The notes below the pieces were generated by a model. That model did no database searches, was not told where the DNA came from, and saw only the letters and a list, made by a program, of their open reading frames with translations. A DNA stretch of 48,021 nucleotides from Verrucomicrobiota bacterium (GTDB taxonomy: Bacteria > Verrucomicrobiota > Verrucomicrobiia > Limisphaerales > UBA8199), in contig JAAYVL010000162.1 in assembly GCA_012517205.1 (NCBI GenBank), positions 1-48,021 on the forward strand. The letters run 5' to 3'. Made by a program: the position numbers and the translations under genes. Every line of letters starts with the position of its first letter. Position 1 is the stretch's first letter. Below, one piece after another: positions 86 to 40,519 of this stretch.

Positions 86-192
86 CCTGGCCGTGTACAA
101 GGGGTGTACAAGGGATGCTCATCGGATGTCCAAGCTTAAACCCTATGTACACCCGGTGAGCATCCCTTGTACACCCCTTGTACATAGCCAGG
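86..192. repeat. Nested palindromic repeat, copy 1
   Basis: Large imperfect inverted repeat between the window start and the TPR gene. Each arm carries the core TGTACAAGGGGTGTACA followed by AGGGATGCTCA, then CGG(A/G)TGT. The stem begins with a copy-specific CCTGGC/GCCAGG pair (86-91 with 187-192). The loop near 133-146 is unpaired. Two TGTACA sites lie in each arm. The same core recurs at 13673-13781 and 40030-40152. Function is unknown; it could be a REP/MITE-like mobile palindrome or a transcribed hairpin. The sequences 1-85 and 193-374 on either side hold no gene that I can support. Confidence 0.85.
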
Positions 193-10779: not shown

Positions 10780-10962
10780 CCCCCGGTGCCGCCCCCGCTC
10801 CCGCACGAAAACTCCCGGCATGATCCAAATCAGACAGTCCCGAGGCGCGGGCCGGCCGCCCCGGCGAAGCCCCGCCCCCCGGCGAATGAATACGCCCCGC
10901 CCGGAACGAGTCAAATGCCTATGACCGGCCAGGCAATGAAGCCGGGCTGGCCCACGCAGGCA

Positions 10963-13377
10963 ATGAAGAACTGGATTTGCAGGAGACTTGATTGGGGACT
11001 GGCGATGGGCATGTTGCTGCTCGCGCTCGGATGCGTGCGGCCGGCGGCCAGCCAGGAGTCGCAGACAACCGTCATCCCCGCCCCCGACACCAACGCGACT
11101 GAGGCGCAAGCCTCCCTGGAACAGGGGGATGAACTGGCAAACGGCGACGAGGTGGCCGACCTCGCCGAGGCCGAGGCCACCCCGATCCCCGCGGACCGGC
11201 CCGCGCCCGCCGGCCTGAAGCTGAGCGCCCCTGCCGCCGAGGTCATCAAACTAGCGGAATCAGGCACGGAGGAAGGCGTGCTGCTGGCCTTCGTCACCAA
11301 CTCGAGTGCTCCCTTCAACCTGGGCGCCGATGAGATTATCTATATGAACGACATCGGCGTCTCGAGCGAGGTTGTGGCCGCCATGATTCAGCGGGATCAG
11401 GCGCTCGGCGGCGGCCCGGCCAGCGTCGAGCCGGCCCCAGCCGCGCCGGTCGCGGAGGAACCGGAGCTGTACGCGCCGCAGCCGGCCGAGTCCTCCGCCG
11501 TGGCGGAAGCCCCACCCGCCGCGCCGCCGCCGCCCGCCGAGACGGTCAGCTACCCGGTTTTTTACAATTCCCTGTCGCCGTATGGCACCTGGATAGACGT
11601 CGCCGGCTGGGGCCCGTGCTGGCGGCCGACCGTGGTCGTCGCCAACCCGGGCTGGCGTCCATACTGTGATGGCGGGCGCTGGATCTACAGCGATTGCGGG
11701 TGGTACTGGCTCTCGGATTACACCTGGGGTTGGGCGCCCTTCCATTACGGCCGCTGGTTCCGGCACCACCGCATGGGGTGGTGCTGGGCGCCGGACACGG
11801 TTTGGGGGCCATCCTGGGTATCCTGGCGGCACACGGCAACCCACTGCGGCTGGGCGCCGCTGCCTCCCGGAGCCTCGTTCACCTACGGACACGGGCTTGC
11901 CTATCGGGGCCGCACCGTCAGCAGCAGCTTTAGTTTTGGCCTGGGCGTCAGCTCCTTCACCTTTGTGGAAACAACCCACTTCCACTCCCGCCACCTGAAT
12001 CGGCATGTTCTGCCGCCGACGCATGCCCGCCACGTCTTTCACCAGGCGCCACCGTCCACGCCTATCGTGATGAACCACGGGCGCGTCATGAACCACGGGA
12101 TTCCCCCCGCGCGGATCACCCAGGCAACGCGCACGGAAATTCACACGGTCACCCTCCAGCCCACCCGCCATGCCCCGGGCCGAAACACTCGCGGGGAACG
12201 GCTCGATGGCAATCAACGGACGCTGGCGGTCTTTCGGCCCGAGTTTCCGGCGTCAACGGGAACCAGCCGCGGACCCGGCGCCCCCGCCCTCCGTAGCACC
12301 CCCCGCGAAGGCGGGTCTTTGCGGACGGGATTCCACGAAGGGAGCCGCGCGCCAGTGGCGGCTTCGGGCGCGCCGTCCGTGCTGCCGGAACGGAAACCGC
12401 CGTCCGTGCGGAGCTCTGCGCCCGCCGGGTCGAGCCTCTCCACTCCTTCCCCGATCGGAACGCCTCGCCCCGACGCGTCCTTCACGCACTCCTCCAGTTC
12501 ACGAACGCTTCCCGCGCCAAACAGCGCCGCCCCGAGCCGGAATCCAGACCCCAAACCAGCCCCGCCGCTGAGTTCGTCCCCCGGGGATCGGCCCCTGCGG
12601 AATGTCCCCGCCAGCAGCGGCAGCACGGTCAGCCGGGAAGCTCCGCGCCCGGCCGCAACTTTTTCCGGCCGAAACGAATCCCGCCCGACCACGCCGGTGA
12701 TCCCGCCTGCTTCTTCCCTGAACCAGGCGGTGCGATCGCTGGCGGTCCCTTCGCAACGGGATCCCCTGCCGCACTCCGCGACAACCCCGCGGACGCCGCG
12801 CGTGACAACGTCGTCCGGGTCAACTTCCGCCCGTACCATTCCGCCTCCGTCTGCGCTGCGCTCCGGGGATTCACCGGCGCGGAGCACGCCGTCGCGGTCG
12901 GGGACTGTCCCCAGCTCCCCAACCCCAGCCCCGACGCGCCCCAGCACGCCAACGGTAACTGCGCCGCGCAGCACGCCGGCTCCGCCCCCCGCCATCGTCC
13001 GCAGCGCGCCCGCGCCGTCCTTCACGCCCGCCCCGGCTCGCCCGGCCTCTCCGCCGGCAACGCCTTTTACCGCACGGACCCCGTCAATGGAATCCCGTCC
13101 AACTCGCAGCACCCCGGCCCCAACCTTCACTCCACAGATGTCGCGTCCGGCTTCCCCGCCGGCAGCGGCCTCCGTTTCGCGCGCCCCGGCGACGGTATCC
13201 CGTCCAACCCAGAGTGCCCCGGCCCAGACCTTCACGCCTCAGCCAGCACGCTCATTTTCGCCGCCACCAACGTCCTCCGGCCAGCGGGCCCCGGCGGTGC
13301 AATCTCAGCCTTCCCGCCCGGCGTCTTCGTCGTCATCCTGGCAAAGCCCCTCTTCATCGGCCAGGCGGGGACGATAA
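10963..13377 (+). CDS. DUF6600 (YXWV) exported protein with long Pro/Ser/Thr-rich tail
   Basis: An 804-residue exported protein. Signal peptide MKNWICRRLDWGLAMGMLLL-ALGC (a weak lipobox). Residues about 85-150 match a helical module seen before DUF6600 domains (EVIKLAESGTEEGVLLAFVT, IYMNDIGVSSEVVAAMIQRD). About 198-305 is the Trp/Tyr/Cys-rich YXWV/DUF6600 core: LSPYGTWIDVAGWGPCWRPT, CGWYWLSDYTWGWAPFHYGR, WCWAPDTVWGPSWVSWRHTA. The remaining 500 residues are low-complexity, with three repeats of about 34 residues near 680-785 (S-PAPxFTPxxxRPxSPP). The frame is open to 10786, but the signal peptide sets the start at 10963. The function of the family is unknown; an envelope or surface role is inferred. 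Confidence 0.82.
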   Translation: MKNWICRRLDWGLAMGMLLLALGCVRPAASQESQTTVIPAPDTNATEAQASLEQGDELANGDEVADLAEAEATPIPADRPAPAGLKLSAPAAEVIKLAESGTEEGVLLAFVTNSSAPFNLGADEIIYMNDIGVSSEVVAAMIQRDQALGGGPASVEPAPAAPVAEEPELYAPQPAESSAVAEAPPAAPPPPAETVSYPVFYNSLSPYGTWIDVAGWGPCWRPTVVVANPGWRPYCDGGRWIYSDCGWYWLSDYTWGWAPFHYGRWFRHHRMGWCWAPDTVWGPSWVSWRHTATHCGWAPLPPGASFTYGHGLAYRGRTVSSSFSFGLGVSSFTFVETTHFHSRHLNRHVLPPTHARHVFHQAPPSTPIVMNHGRVMNHGIPPARITQATRTEIHTVTLQPTRHAPGRNTRGERLDGNQRTLAVFRPEFPASTGTSRGPGAPALRSTPREGGSLRTGFHEGSRAPVAASGAPSVLPERKPPSVRSSAPAGSSLSTPSPIGTPRPDASFTHSSSSRTLPAPNSAAPSRNPDPKPAPPLSSSPGDRPLRNVPASSGSTVSREAPRPAATFSGRNESRPTTPVIPPASSLNQAVRSLAVPSQRDPLPHSATTPRTPRVTTSSGSTSARTIPPPSALRSGDSPARSTPSRSGTVPSSPTPAPTRPSTPTVTAPRSTPAPPPAIVRSAPAPSFTPAPARPASPPATPFTARTPSMESRPTRSTPAPTFTPQMSRPASPPAAASVSRAPATVSRPTQSAPAQTFTPQPARSFSPPPTSSGQRAPAVQSQPSRPASSSSSWQSPSSSARRGR

Positions 13378-13432: not shown

Positions 13433-13555
13433 CTGATTACCGGTTGCCGAAAACAGCCAAGCAACGCGGCGACCCTCGCTGAAAAGGGCACCCATTTAGG
13501 GCTGGATTGAAGCTCGCGCCTGCGAAAGCTCCCACCCCGAAACGGCGTCCCAAAC

Positions 13556-13572
13556 TGTCCAATTATTGGACA
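13556..13572. promoter_or_regulatory. Operator-like palindrome TGTCCAA-TTA-TTGGACA
   Basis: Perfect 7-bp arms around TTA, preceded by AC as in the two TGTGCCA palindromes, giving the shared left half ACTGT(G/C)C. It lies in the AT-richer part of the intergenic region, about 100 bp before nested palindrome copy 2. Confidence 0.35.
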
Positions 13573-13672
13573 CTTTCCCAGATACCAGCTTTGGCAACTC
13601 TATTTCGTCTCGCCTCAGCCTCCAAGTCACTTTAGTCCACTTTAGCCCGTAAATAGCTCAAAAATAGCTAAC

Positions 13673-13781
13673 AATACGCCGTGTACAAGGGGTGTACATC
13701 GGATGCTCATCGGATGATCATGGTATTTTCCGTTGTTCACCCGGTGAGCATCCGATGTACACCCCTTGTACACAGCGTATT
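13673..13781. repeat. Nested palindromic repeat, copy 2
   Basis: Second copy of the palindrome family. The copy-specific outer stem is AATACGC/GCGTATT (13673-13679 with 13775-13781). The core is TGTACAAGGGGTGTACA followed by TCGGATGCTCA. Compared with copies 1 and 3, AAGG has become ATCG and TGT has become TGA, and both changes occur on both arms so pairing is kept. The left arm has CGGATG and the right arm CGGGTG, as in the other copies, so all three lie in the same orientation. Confidence 0.85.
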
Positions 13782-13940
13782 AGGGCGGGGAAATCAGGGA
13801 GAATGGCTGGAAAAGATGGAGGGAATCGGGGATTCGTGGGTTGGGAGGTTTGGCGGCTGGGGAGGGAGAACCAGGGGCTGGTTTTCGTTTTTATGGGGTG
13901 CCGGGAGGGCAGGGCGATAGAGCCTTATGGCAGGAGCTGA

Positions 13941-13961
13941 ACTGTGCCAAATTGGCACAGT
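13941..13961. promoter_or_regulatory. Operator-like palindrome ACTGTGCCAA-A-TTGGCACAGT
   Basis: Perfect 10-bp arms around one base, 164 bp before the chosen ruvC start. It is the longest of three similar palindromes in this intergenic region. Its position upstream of ruvC-ruvA would suit a repressor operator, but no regulator gene is adjacent and it does not match the LexA boxes I know. Confidence 0.45.
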
Positions 13962-14124
13962 CGGGATGGGGTATAGAAAAGTTTGTTGGAGCCCGCGAAA
14001 CCCGGGGAGTTGTGGTTTGGCAAAGCCGGGTGGGAGTCAGGGTGCGGAGGATGGCCGCGAGGGAGGTTTGCGGAGAATGACGGCGTTCCTTTTGTGCTTT
14101 TGCCCCTCGACGGACAGTGGCAAT

Positions 14125-14739
14125 ATGGCGCGGATGGGCATTACCCCACAGCAGTTCCGGCAAATGCAGGAGCGCGTCGGCCGCCCCCGGCGCGCGGCCC
14201 GGGCTATGCCGGAGGGGATGGCGCCCGCGCGTGTCAAGGTTGGCCAGGTTATTCTGGGTTTGGATCCGTCGCTGCGCGGCACGGGTTATGGGGTTATCAA
14301 GCTGGCCCGGCCCTTTCCGCAGACGCTGGCGCAGGGCGTGATTGCCTGTCCGGCGAGTTGGGCGCGTTCCCGTTGTCTGGTGGAAATCGCGCAAACCTTG
14401 CGCGCGGTGTTGCGCCGGCATCCGCCCGCGGTATGCGCGGTCGAGGGATTGTTTTACGCGCAGAACTTGCGGACGGCGCTGATCATGGGGGAAGCCCGCG
14501 GCGCGGCGTTGGCGGTGGTGGCCGAGGCGGGGCTGGAGATTTACGAGTTGGCGCCGCGCAAGGTGAAGCAGGCCATCGTCGGTTATGGCGCGGCGCAGAA
14601 GCTGGCGGTGGCGAAGATGGTGCAACGGATGTTATGCCTGCCGGAAACGCCCGCGCCGGATGCGGCGGACGCGCTGGCGCTGGCACTGGCGCTGGCGGCG
14701 GCGCCGGCCGGCCGTTTTCAAGCCGCTCCCCGCGTATGA
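14125..14739 (+). CDS. ruvC: Crossover junction endodeoxyribonuclease RuvC
   Basis: A 204-residue Holliday junction resolvase. It cuts four-way junctions symmetrically in concert with RuvAB during recombination repair. The RNase H-like acidic residues are in place: D47 in ILGLDPSLRGTGYGVI, E107 in VCAVEGLFYAQN, and D179/D182 in APDAADALALAL. An N-terminal extension of about 40 residues (MARMGITPQQFRQMQERVG and following) precedes the usual start of the family. The frame is open upstream to 13927; ATG 14077, preceded by GGAG, is a possible longer start. The stop overlaps the ruvA start (ATGA), so the two proteins of one pathway are made from one transcript. No ruvB lies in this window. Confidence 0.93.
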   Translation: MARMGITPQQFRQMQERVGRPRRAARAMPEGMAPARVKVGQVILGLDPSLRGTGYGVIKLARPFPQTLAQGVIACPASWARSRCLVEIAQTLRAVLRRHPPAVCAVEGLFYAQNLRTALIMGEARGAALAVVAEAGLEIYELAPRKVKQAIVGYGAAQKLAVAKMVQRMLCLPETPAPDAADALALALALAAAPAGRFQAAPRV

Positions 14740-15341
14740 TTGCTTTTCTTCGAGGACAACTGATCGAGGCGCTGCCCACCCAGGTGACGGTCGAGGTCAA
14801 TGGCGTCGGTTACGAAGCGCTGATTCCGCTTTCCTCTTATGACCACCTGCCGGCGCCCGGCCAGGAGGTAAAGCTGCTGACGCACCTGGTGGTGCGCGAG
14901 GACGCGCATGTTCTCTATGGTTTCATGACCGCCGCCGAGCGCGAGCTGTTTCGCCTGCTGATCAACACCGTCAGCGGCATCGGCCCCAAGATCGCGCTCA
15001 ACGTGCTGAGCGGGATGAATCCCACGGCCTTCCGCGGCGCGGTGGCCAACGGGGACGTGAAGTCGCTGTCGCAGATTTCGGGGGTGGGCCGGAAGACGGC
15101 GGAGCGCATCGTGGTGGAGTTGAAGGACAAGATCGGCGCCGCCGGGGCCTGGGAGGCGGCCAGCGCCCAGCGCGCGCTCTCGCCGGCGGATCAGCGGGTC
15201 AACGATGCGGTGCTCGCCCTGATGGCACTGGGGTTCAAGCAAATCGAGGCGCACGATTCCGTCCGCAAGGCGCAGGCGGCGCTGGGCGCCCAGGCGACCG
15301 TCGAGGATCTCGTCCGGTCCTGCCTGAAAAAGGGAGCGTGA
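14736..15341 (+). CDS. ruvA: Holliday junction branch migration protein RuvA
   Basis: A 201-residue protein of usual length (E. coli 203). It binds Holliday junctions as a tetramer and loads the RuvB helicase. The N-terminal OB-fold begins MIAFLRGQLIEALPTQVTVE and includes NGVGYEALIPLSSY. The two helix-hairpin-helix motifs are at LINTVSGIGPKIALNVLSGM (about 72-91) and LSQISGVGRKTAERIVVELK (about 107-126). The C-terminal RuvB-contact domain is at about 150-201 (NDAVLALMALGFKQIEAHDS). It overlaps ruvC at its start and the acyltransferase gene at its end (TGATG), so all three are translationally coupled. Confidence 0.96.
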   Translation: MIAFLRGQLIEALPTQVTVEVNGVGYEALIPLSSYDHLPAPGQEVKLLTHLVVREDAHVLYGFMTAAERELFRLLINTVSGIGPKIALNVLSGMNPTAFRGAVANGDVKSLSQISGVGRKTAERIVVELKDKIGAAGAWEAASAQRALSPADQRVNDAVLALMALGFKQIEAHDSVRKAQAALGAQATVEDLVRSCLKKGA

Positions 15342-39546: not shown

Positions 39547-40519
39547 AGTCGAGTGTTGTCAGATTCGTCAGGATAAATCTAGTGGAATTATGCCGCCCGG
39601 CGCAACCCGAGTTTTCCCGCGGCGCCGCTTTGGGCCGCGCCTCAAAACCGGAAAGCATGCCGCTCCCGTTCCCGGTGCCGCCAAAGACCGTCGGCAACCG
39701 GCGCAGGCCGGGTTGCGCGGCAATAACAGGCAAGGCGGCCTCGCCAGCGGGACAATCTTCGCCGGAAACTTAGATCGGGAACGGTTCAGGCGGGCGGTTT
39801 AATCATGTGCCATCGTCTCGCTGGAGCCTGGGTGGCCCTGATAACCCAGACCGTAATCCCCATAAACCCCCGGATTGACGATTTCAAGCGCATAGCCGTT
39901 AAGAGCTAAACGCCTTTCGCTGGTAAAATCAATGATTTACGCACCCAGGAAGGAGCTGAATGGAGGCGAAACCTGAGTCTTTTCGGCTCAGAGGCGCCTT
40001 GGGCATACCTTGCAAATACCTTGGATTTACCCTGCCTTCAGGCCGTGTACAAGGGGTGTACAAGGGATGCCCACCGGATGTTCATAAGATTTTAGCTGGT
40101 ACACCCGATGGGCATCCCTTGTACACCCCTTGTACACGGCCTGAAGGCAGGGGATTTTCGGGGTATTTGGATAATGGCTACGGGTGCCTGGAAAGGCCGA
40201 GATGATAAGAGAGAACTGGAGGATAATAATTAAGTTCCTTAAAAACAGTTAGCTATGAATCCAGGGTTGACAAAAAAGGGAGGGCAAGGGCGGACGGGCG
40301 GTAAGCCCGCGGATGCCCTGCGGGGCACGGTTCACCGGGCAGAATGCCGGGAGATTGCGGACGGGATCGGGCGGGAACTGGTTGGGAAACCGGCGGATAA
40401 CCCGGTCGGGCGAGGTATCGGCGATGCGTTCCGGCTCCTTTCGCTCACGAAAGAGGAGTCCGGTTCGGGGGCCCAGACCGGTCTCTTGGGCAACGGGTCC
40501 TGCGCGAAGGCGGCAGCGA
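39547..40519. other. Long intergenic region with nested palindrome copy 3
   Basis: About 970 bp with no gene I can support. It holds nested palindrome copy 3 (40030-40152) and an AT-richer patch near 40205-40270 (AATAATTAAGTTCC). The open frames here read through the palindrome or have no recognisable features. No tRNA cloverleaf was seen. Confidence 0.65.
40030..40152. repeat. Nested palindromic repeat, copy 3
   Basis: Third and longest copy. The outer, copy-specific stem is a perfect 14-bp pair, CCCTGCCTTCAGGC at 40030-40043 with its complement at 40139-40152, followed by the shared core TGTACAAGGGGTGTACA and AGGGATGCCCA on each arm. CTCA of copies 1 and 2 is CCCA here on both arms. The arms are perfect for about 44 bp before the first mismatch (C against A in CCA(C/T)CGG). 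About 30 bp of poorly paired loop remain (about 40077-40106). Confidence 0.88.

Follow-up and report, generated by a model that had tools for sequence, protein, structure and literature searches.

A Verrucomicrobiota genome carries an extrapolated 180 or so dispersed copies of an inverted array of 11-bp iterons, and these copies are mutually excluded within about 8–9 kb. The same core is found in unrelated flanking sequences, and in some copies it lies in frame within the 3' tail of a multicopy gene family. Three copies fall in the window, the whole 48,021-nt stretch of DNA that was analysed.

Three window copies and the anatomy of the core

Long palindromes are present at 86–192, 13673–13781 and 40030–40152 of the window, as a sequence-only reading had proposed, and sequence inspection, folding and a repeat-family search all confirmed them. 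Their single-strand DNA folds reach -44.6, -48.6 and -64.4 kcal/mol (elements 1, 2 and 3; z = -11.8 to -16.7), none of 200 shuffles was as stable, and the repeat search joined them into one family at 79–83% identity. In all three the fold extends beyond the core into an outer stem; for element 3, the repeat search returned arms at 40013–40081 and 40101–40169 that are 88% complementary. Rfam gave no match to the window, and Pfam found no transposase among the genes neighbouring its copies, both in agreement with the earlier reading, which could match the palindromes to no named family and saw no transposase beside them. The features are as follows.

86..192, no strand: element 1 and its outer stem, CCTGGC...GCCAGG, specific to this locus (fold, repeat search)
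94..184, no strand: element 1 core, 91 bp, four 11-bp iterons, 3 bp and four inverted iterons (sequence; HMM 118 bits)
13555..13573, no strand: P2, a second palindrome, CTGTCCAATTATTGGACAC, 19 bp, 108 bp from the element 2 core (P2 site search)
13673..13781, no strand: element 2 with its outer stem AATACGC...GCGTATT (fold, repeat search)
13682..13772, no strand: element 2 core, 91 bp, 4+4 iterons as in element 1 (sequence; HMM 115 bits)
39916..40045, + strand: left flank module A (subfamily AB) of element 3, including the left ~84-bp direct repeat, centre ~39958 (direct-repeat match 47 bits; side clustering)
40030..40152, no strand: element 3 with its long outer stem CCCTGCCTTCAGGCC...GGCCTGAAGGCAGGG (fold, repeat search)
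40046..40136, no strand: element 3 core, 91 bp, 4+4 iterons as in element 1 (sequence; HMM 132.7 bits)
40137..40274, + strand: right flank module B (subfamily AB) of element 3, conserved stretch (85% identity to locus L039; consensus)

The P2 of element 1 lies just beyond the window edge, on the end of contig C150; that contig ends with P2 followed by the window's first bases, and element 1 appears to be the junction between it and the window's contig. Element 2 lies directly 5' of the Holliday-junction genes ruvC and ruvA (13927–15341), probably by coincidence.

The core consists of four 11-bp iterons (TGNNCANNGGN), TTT and four inverted iterons, in the order TGTACAAGGGG / TGTACAAGGGA / TGCTCAYCGGR / TGTNCANNNNN / TTT / mirror image. 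The earlier reading had recognised the tandem 11-bp repeat in each arm, and the unit stands; there are four units per arm, not the two it had counted. Core length varies in 11-bp steps: of 76 copies, 72 have a core of 91 bp, and the other four, with one extra unit, reach 102 bp. The stem spans about 44 bp or more and ends GCCG...CGGC. In an alignment of 72 copies, every 11-bp unit keeps its TG, CA and GG nearly invariant in both arms, and these invariant bases extend into the inner half, where the arms are often unpaired (A/A at position 34, C/T at 37); position 38, beside the unpaired 37, is a C/G pair in 71 of 72 copies. As these inner positions are conserved without pairing, the constraint appears to act on the 11-bp iteron and not on the hairpin alone, a pattern that suits an array bound by protein better than a hairpin in RNA. 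In a comparison of two strains (loci C60 and L041, two sequences compared by reading), all six core changes fall at positions that vary among copies.

Outside the core, an outer stem with at least 9 of 10 pairs is locus-specific and present in 12 of 76 elements, compared with 2.6 expected when partners are shuffled; beyond 14 nt, flank complementarity does not exceed that of shuffled partners. Measured against the flanks, the asymmetric centre can point either way (15:9 and 17:11), and that of element 1 (..CCAAGCTTAAACCC..) is of the type reversed relative to elements 2 and 3, contradicting the earlier claim that all copies share one orientation.

Copy number

The MAG analysed is a draft in 181 contigs, six of which are very short and begin with masked N. 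Searching all 3.6 Mb with the 17-bp arm core TGTACAAGGGGTGTACA, allowing at most two mismatches, gave 161 forward and 159 reverse matches, compared with 0/0 for a reversed control, which agrees with the tens to hundreds of intergenic copies expected of a dispersed family. Within the 2.28 Mb (~63%) that was read directly, in stretches, a profile built from clear copies found 113 elements, which extrapolates to about 180 in the genome, or one per 18–20 kb. Nearly all are full copies, which score 80–134 bits, and the few inspected at 50–65 bits are copies truncated by contig ends. Contig ends often lie near elements or within the linked gene described below, and an identical 141-bp flank recurs at the starts of contigs C43 and C88 and the end of C140, which may reflect strain variation or contigs that join at an element.

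In the same 2.28 Mb, TGTACAAGGG is absent outside the elements and TGTACA alone shows no avoidance there (0.90 of expectation). Apart from masked N runs, no other 11-bp tandem arrays were found away from cores in the sequence read, and the exact palindrome had no match in viral contigs. Several hexamer palindromes are strongly depleted outside elements, a pattern that looks like restriction avoidance (GTCGAC, 14 against 268 expected; CAGCTG, 46 against 744; ATCGAT, 21 against 202).

Copies keep a minimum distance

Distances between neighbouring copies on the same contig (n = 51) range from 8,969 to 37,229 bp with a mean of 18.0 kb and a coefficient of variation (CV) of 0.345. Random scatter over the same segments gives a CV of about 0.98 and never below 0.646, so that none of 20,000 simulations matched the observed value. 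About 34 distances under 8.9 kb would be expected at random, and never fewer than 20 arose in 20,000 simulations; none was observed. Random choice among intergenic gaps was likewise rejected (least CV 0.586 in 5,000 simulations, against 0.360 observed, in the first 1.6 Mb). By comparison, a model of pure exclusion at 10 kb is compatible with the data (P 0.2 for CV, 0.09 for the longest gap), and one at 9 kb comes close (P ~0.06 and ~0.04). Since a 9–10 kb minimum distance is nearly sufficient, exclusion is established, and the distances only hint at an upper limit on spacing; the longest element-free stretch in 2.28 Mb is 37.2 kb.

Flank sequence matched at two contig ends implies that cores lie shortly beyond the assembled sequence, at distances of 7.8 and 8.3 kb, and a gene start at the end of contig C27 suggests, by our own arithmetic, a spacing of about 7.7 kb. 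These contig-end distances place the rule at about 8–9 kb and not at exactly 9; because contig ends are so often beside elements or in the linked gene, close pairs could in principle hide in the gaps. Among the 32 intervals whose flanks could be classified, 21 join different flank classes, the shortest of them measuring 8,969 bp. As cores with unrelated flanks obey the same spacing, it is the core, not the flank, that carries the rule.

Flank classes and gene context

Elements occupy unusually long intergenic gaps (median 945 bp). In gene calls from a home-made gene finder, which missed at least one gene (10786–13377, DUF6600), 59 elements lie in 34 codirectional, 18 divergent and 7 convergent gaps, with a background of 299, 149 and 45; these 59 show no preference for any gap type.

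Many copies belong to a unit larger than the palindrome, with P2 or long conserved flanks, and we distinguish the flank classes AB, P2, GH and CF, the last being the gene units. Class AB, which includes window element 3, has 25 copies with both modules and a unit of roughly 600 bp bounded by direct repeats of ~84 bp, one about 120 bp to the left of the core centre and the other about 278 or 424 bp to its right; module B is longer in other copies than in the window, and the full module includes the second direct repeat. Class P2, which includes window element 2, comprises 24 copies with the palindrome GTGTCCAATAATTGGACA(C/G). All 24 P2 sites in 1.6 Mb adjoin a core, most at 107–108 bp from its edge, and the distance of ~108 bp is kept although the spacer sequence is not conserved. 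Mixed copies are few (AA, A+P2, A+J) and there is no BB class, so the exchange of halves between flank modules through recombination at the cores was rejected as a main process. The flank consensuses contain no common ends, no target-site duplication and no T-run after the stem, and no terminal repeat was seen in the element units.

A linked gene family carries the core in its 3' tail

Elsewhere in the genome, a multicopy gene family carries the core in frame within its C-terminal tail, roughly 100–175 bp past the conserved domain, in 13 of the 14 copies with a readable 3' end; the exception is a copy on contig C98 without a core. A 36-residue remnant of the gene on contig C67 also precedes a core. 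The protein has no match in Pfam, NCBIfam or PHROG. An AlphaFold2 model built from 14 sequences (pLDDT 86) predicts an N-terminal helical region followed by a C-terminal beta domain that resembles fibronectin type III (FN3; best PDB matches E ~1e-3), and as this small helical domain plus FN3-like domain has no DNA-binding match, the protein may not be the binder. We consider the protein a candidate partner of the array; the model identifies it neither as a DNA-binding protein nor as a transposase.

Judged by ORF layout, each gene copy has different neighbours, and no conserved partner gene stood out. Neither a recombinase nor a transposase turned up with the units, as covered by Pfam among the window neighbours and ORF layout at the gene copies, and the gene family is absent from the viral contigs, phages and plasmids searched. 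The sequence-only reading had seen no gene associated with the palindromes; its dispersed, high-copy element holds up, and its single orientation and lack of an associated gene do not. It had not noticed the near-regular spacing, the 4+4 iteron architecture or the flank subfamilies.

Distribution in relatives

Among 13 genomes from the same family, a sequence model detects elements or partial arrays in only four, namely the window's own, G008, G010 and G012. Matches to the linked protein family number 42, 29, 8 and 48 in these four genomes, many being pieces cut by contig ends, and there are none in the nine family genomes that lack iterons. The linked family and the iterons coincide in exactly these 4 of 13 genomes, for which the chance probability is 1/715, a figure that overstates the coincidence because G008 and G012 share a genus. 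In wider samples the linked family is rare (5 of 293 genomes of the order and 2 of 388 of the phylum, the window's own counted in each).

Of 14 tails tested downstream of the paralogs in relatives, 8 hold arrays of 11-bp repeats, and the corresponding upstream regions do not. The repeated units often differ from the window iteron (TCGTTTCAAGG, GTAGTACCTTG, GATGCCCTAAG, ATGGTGTACGG and others), which suggests that arrays in relatives are specific to each paralog. Loci L241, L242, L243, L244, L238 and L236, from G010, G008 and G012, show linked-gene paralogs followed by 11-bp arrays, some of them as inverted pairs.

The element is also found in three other assemblies. One orthologous locus, L041 against C60 (95% identical), carries it in both strains; this sole available locus shows no sign of the movement between matched loci envisaged for a mobile family, and no empty site was seen. 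Window positions 40019–40274 match L039 (JAKQJK010000358.1) at 85% identity; there the element sits on a contig assigned to a Pseudomonadota MAG, probably through misbinning.

Comparison with known systems

The chromosomal sites of Noc, SlmA, MatP and ParB are single short palindromes of 12–16 bp, and we know of no minimum distance that they keep. In plasmid R1, parC is an iteron array of 11-bp repeats bound by ParR. Like parC, the window family has 11-bp direct repeats one helical turn apart, also beside genes in relatives, and cooperative binding is a feature of the plasmid arrays; the present arrays differ in being chromosomal, in numbering about 180 and in their inverted 4+4 arrangement, and the linked gene matches no family and encodes a protein whose model resembles FN3, not ParR. 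With Noc (PMC4331003), SlmA (PMC3573117), MatP and ParB, the family shares a conserved, palindromic site, sequence-specific in those systems, repeated round the chromosome, here in the form of eight-iteron arrays set in repeated flanks. In target immunity, a copy of Tn7 or Mu keeps further copies away over kilobases (PMC7350765), and copies of the window family are likewise excluded near one another; however, no transposase, transposon ends or AAA+ regulator was found with the element, and Pfam detected neither a transposase nor an immunity ATPase among the window neighbours tested. Integron attC cassettes, characterised by R/L boxes (RYYYAAC / GTTRRRY) and an integrase, resemble the gene units in their layout (ORF, then palindrome).

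Alternative explanations

The spacing could itself be under selection, with a protein on about 180 arrays bridging, tethering or insulating chromosomal domains or marking the nucleoid, as Noc, SlmA and MatP do with their sites. We regard this as possible though rather unlikely. It would suit the absence of any element-free stretch above 37.2 kb, a CV slightly under that of the 9-kb exclusion model, the persistence of intact cores in diverged flanks and the lack of a gene-orientation preference. Exclusion at 10 kb alone is nevertheless compatible with the distances, 9 of the 13 family genomes lack such a site, which would make the role lineage-specific, and the candidate role comes with no identified architectural protein. 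A role in RNA, as terminators or mRNA-stabilising stem-loops at gene ends, is improbable: it draws on the very stable folds and on outer stems that extend the fold perfectly at some loci, but would leave the ~9-kb exclusion without a reason and does not explain the conservation of unpaired inner iteron positions. Intrinsic termination, which calls for a GC-rich hairpin and a T-run at gene ends, suits the elements poorly, as the flank consensuses show no T-run and gene ends are not preferred, with 18 of 59 elements lying between divergent genes.

High-copy, mostly intergenic palindromes recall the REP, REPIN and BIME families mobilised by RAYT (Y1) transposases, in which repeat copies are carried by a gene in the same genome and many gene-less copies lie elsewhere (PMC2817692, PMC3116915, PMC3733652). 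The window's genome does encode two Y1 transposases (PF01797, 150–158 aa; G000:C98:28641-28985 and C173:9202-9540), but neither gene has a core within 1.5 kb, unlike REPs, which flank their RAYT gene. Described REPs have a short stem of 5–13 bp tagged GTAG or CGTC (PMC3733652), compared with arms of 44 bp here, in a 91-bp core built of 11-bp iterons; the copies are unclustered and keep ~8–9 kb apart, the reverse of BIME-type arrays, and the linked gene, which holds the repeat within its coding 3' tail, is not a Y1 transposase. We consider a classical REP/REPIN origin very improbable. An artefact of assembly or binning, which the fragmentation of the draft into 181 contigs with ends near elements or inside the linked gene might suggest, is negligible in our estimation, given that elements lie inside contigs as long as 152 kb, with flanks that differ from site to site, and recur in three other assemblies, one of them at the orthologous locus.

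A proposed model of gene-borne iteron arrays

In the best-supported reading, to which we give roughly even weight, the elements are iteron arrays bound by a protein; they would have spread from a unit of gene plus array, each copy excluding others nearby, and would be maintained today. Each element would serve as a landing array for a sequence-specific DNA-binding protein, and iterons placed one helical turn apart would align its protomers on one face of the DNA, the two inverted blocks of four meeting at the centre. The arrays may have spread through the chromosome as parts of repeated units, one type of unit being the multicopy gene with an array in its 3' end, and most copies would now be gene-less intergenic sites. 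A second array within ~8–9 kb would be disfavoured, most simply, either by the complex bound to the first, as in transposon target immunity, or by selection. Older copies, with intact cores in diverged flanks, suggest that the sites are still in use.

Repeats dispersed in bacterial genomes usually form clusters or fall at random, and a minimum distance of ~8–9 kb kept regardless of flanks stands apart from both patterns; exclusion of this kind implies either a spread that senses existing copies or selection acting on the architecture of the chromosome. The linked gene family, which matches no named domain and whose 11-bp arrays seem specific to each paralog, offers a tangible new subject for study. 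With somewhat less than even confidence, we propose that it represents an undescribed gene-plus-iteron system of Verrucomicrobiota, in which each family member has its own downstream 11-bp array and one lineage may have seeded its chromosome with about 180 quasi-regular arrays, through proximity sensing or selection on architecture.
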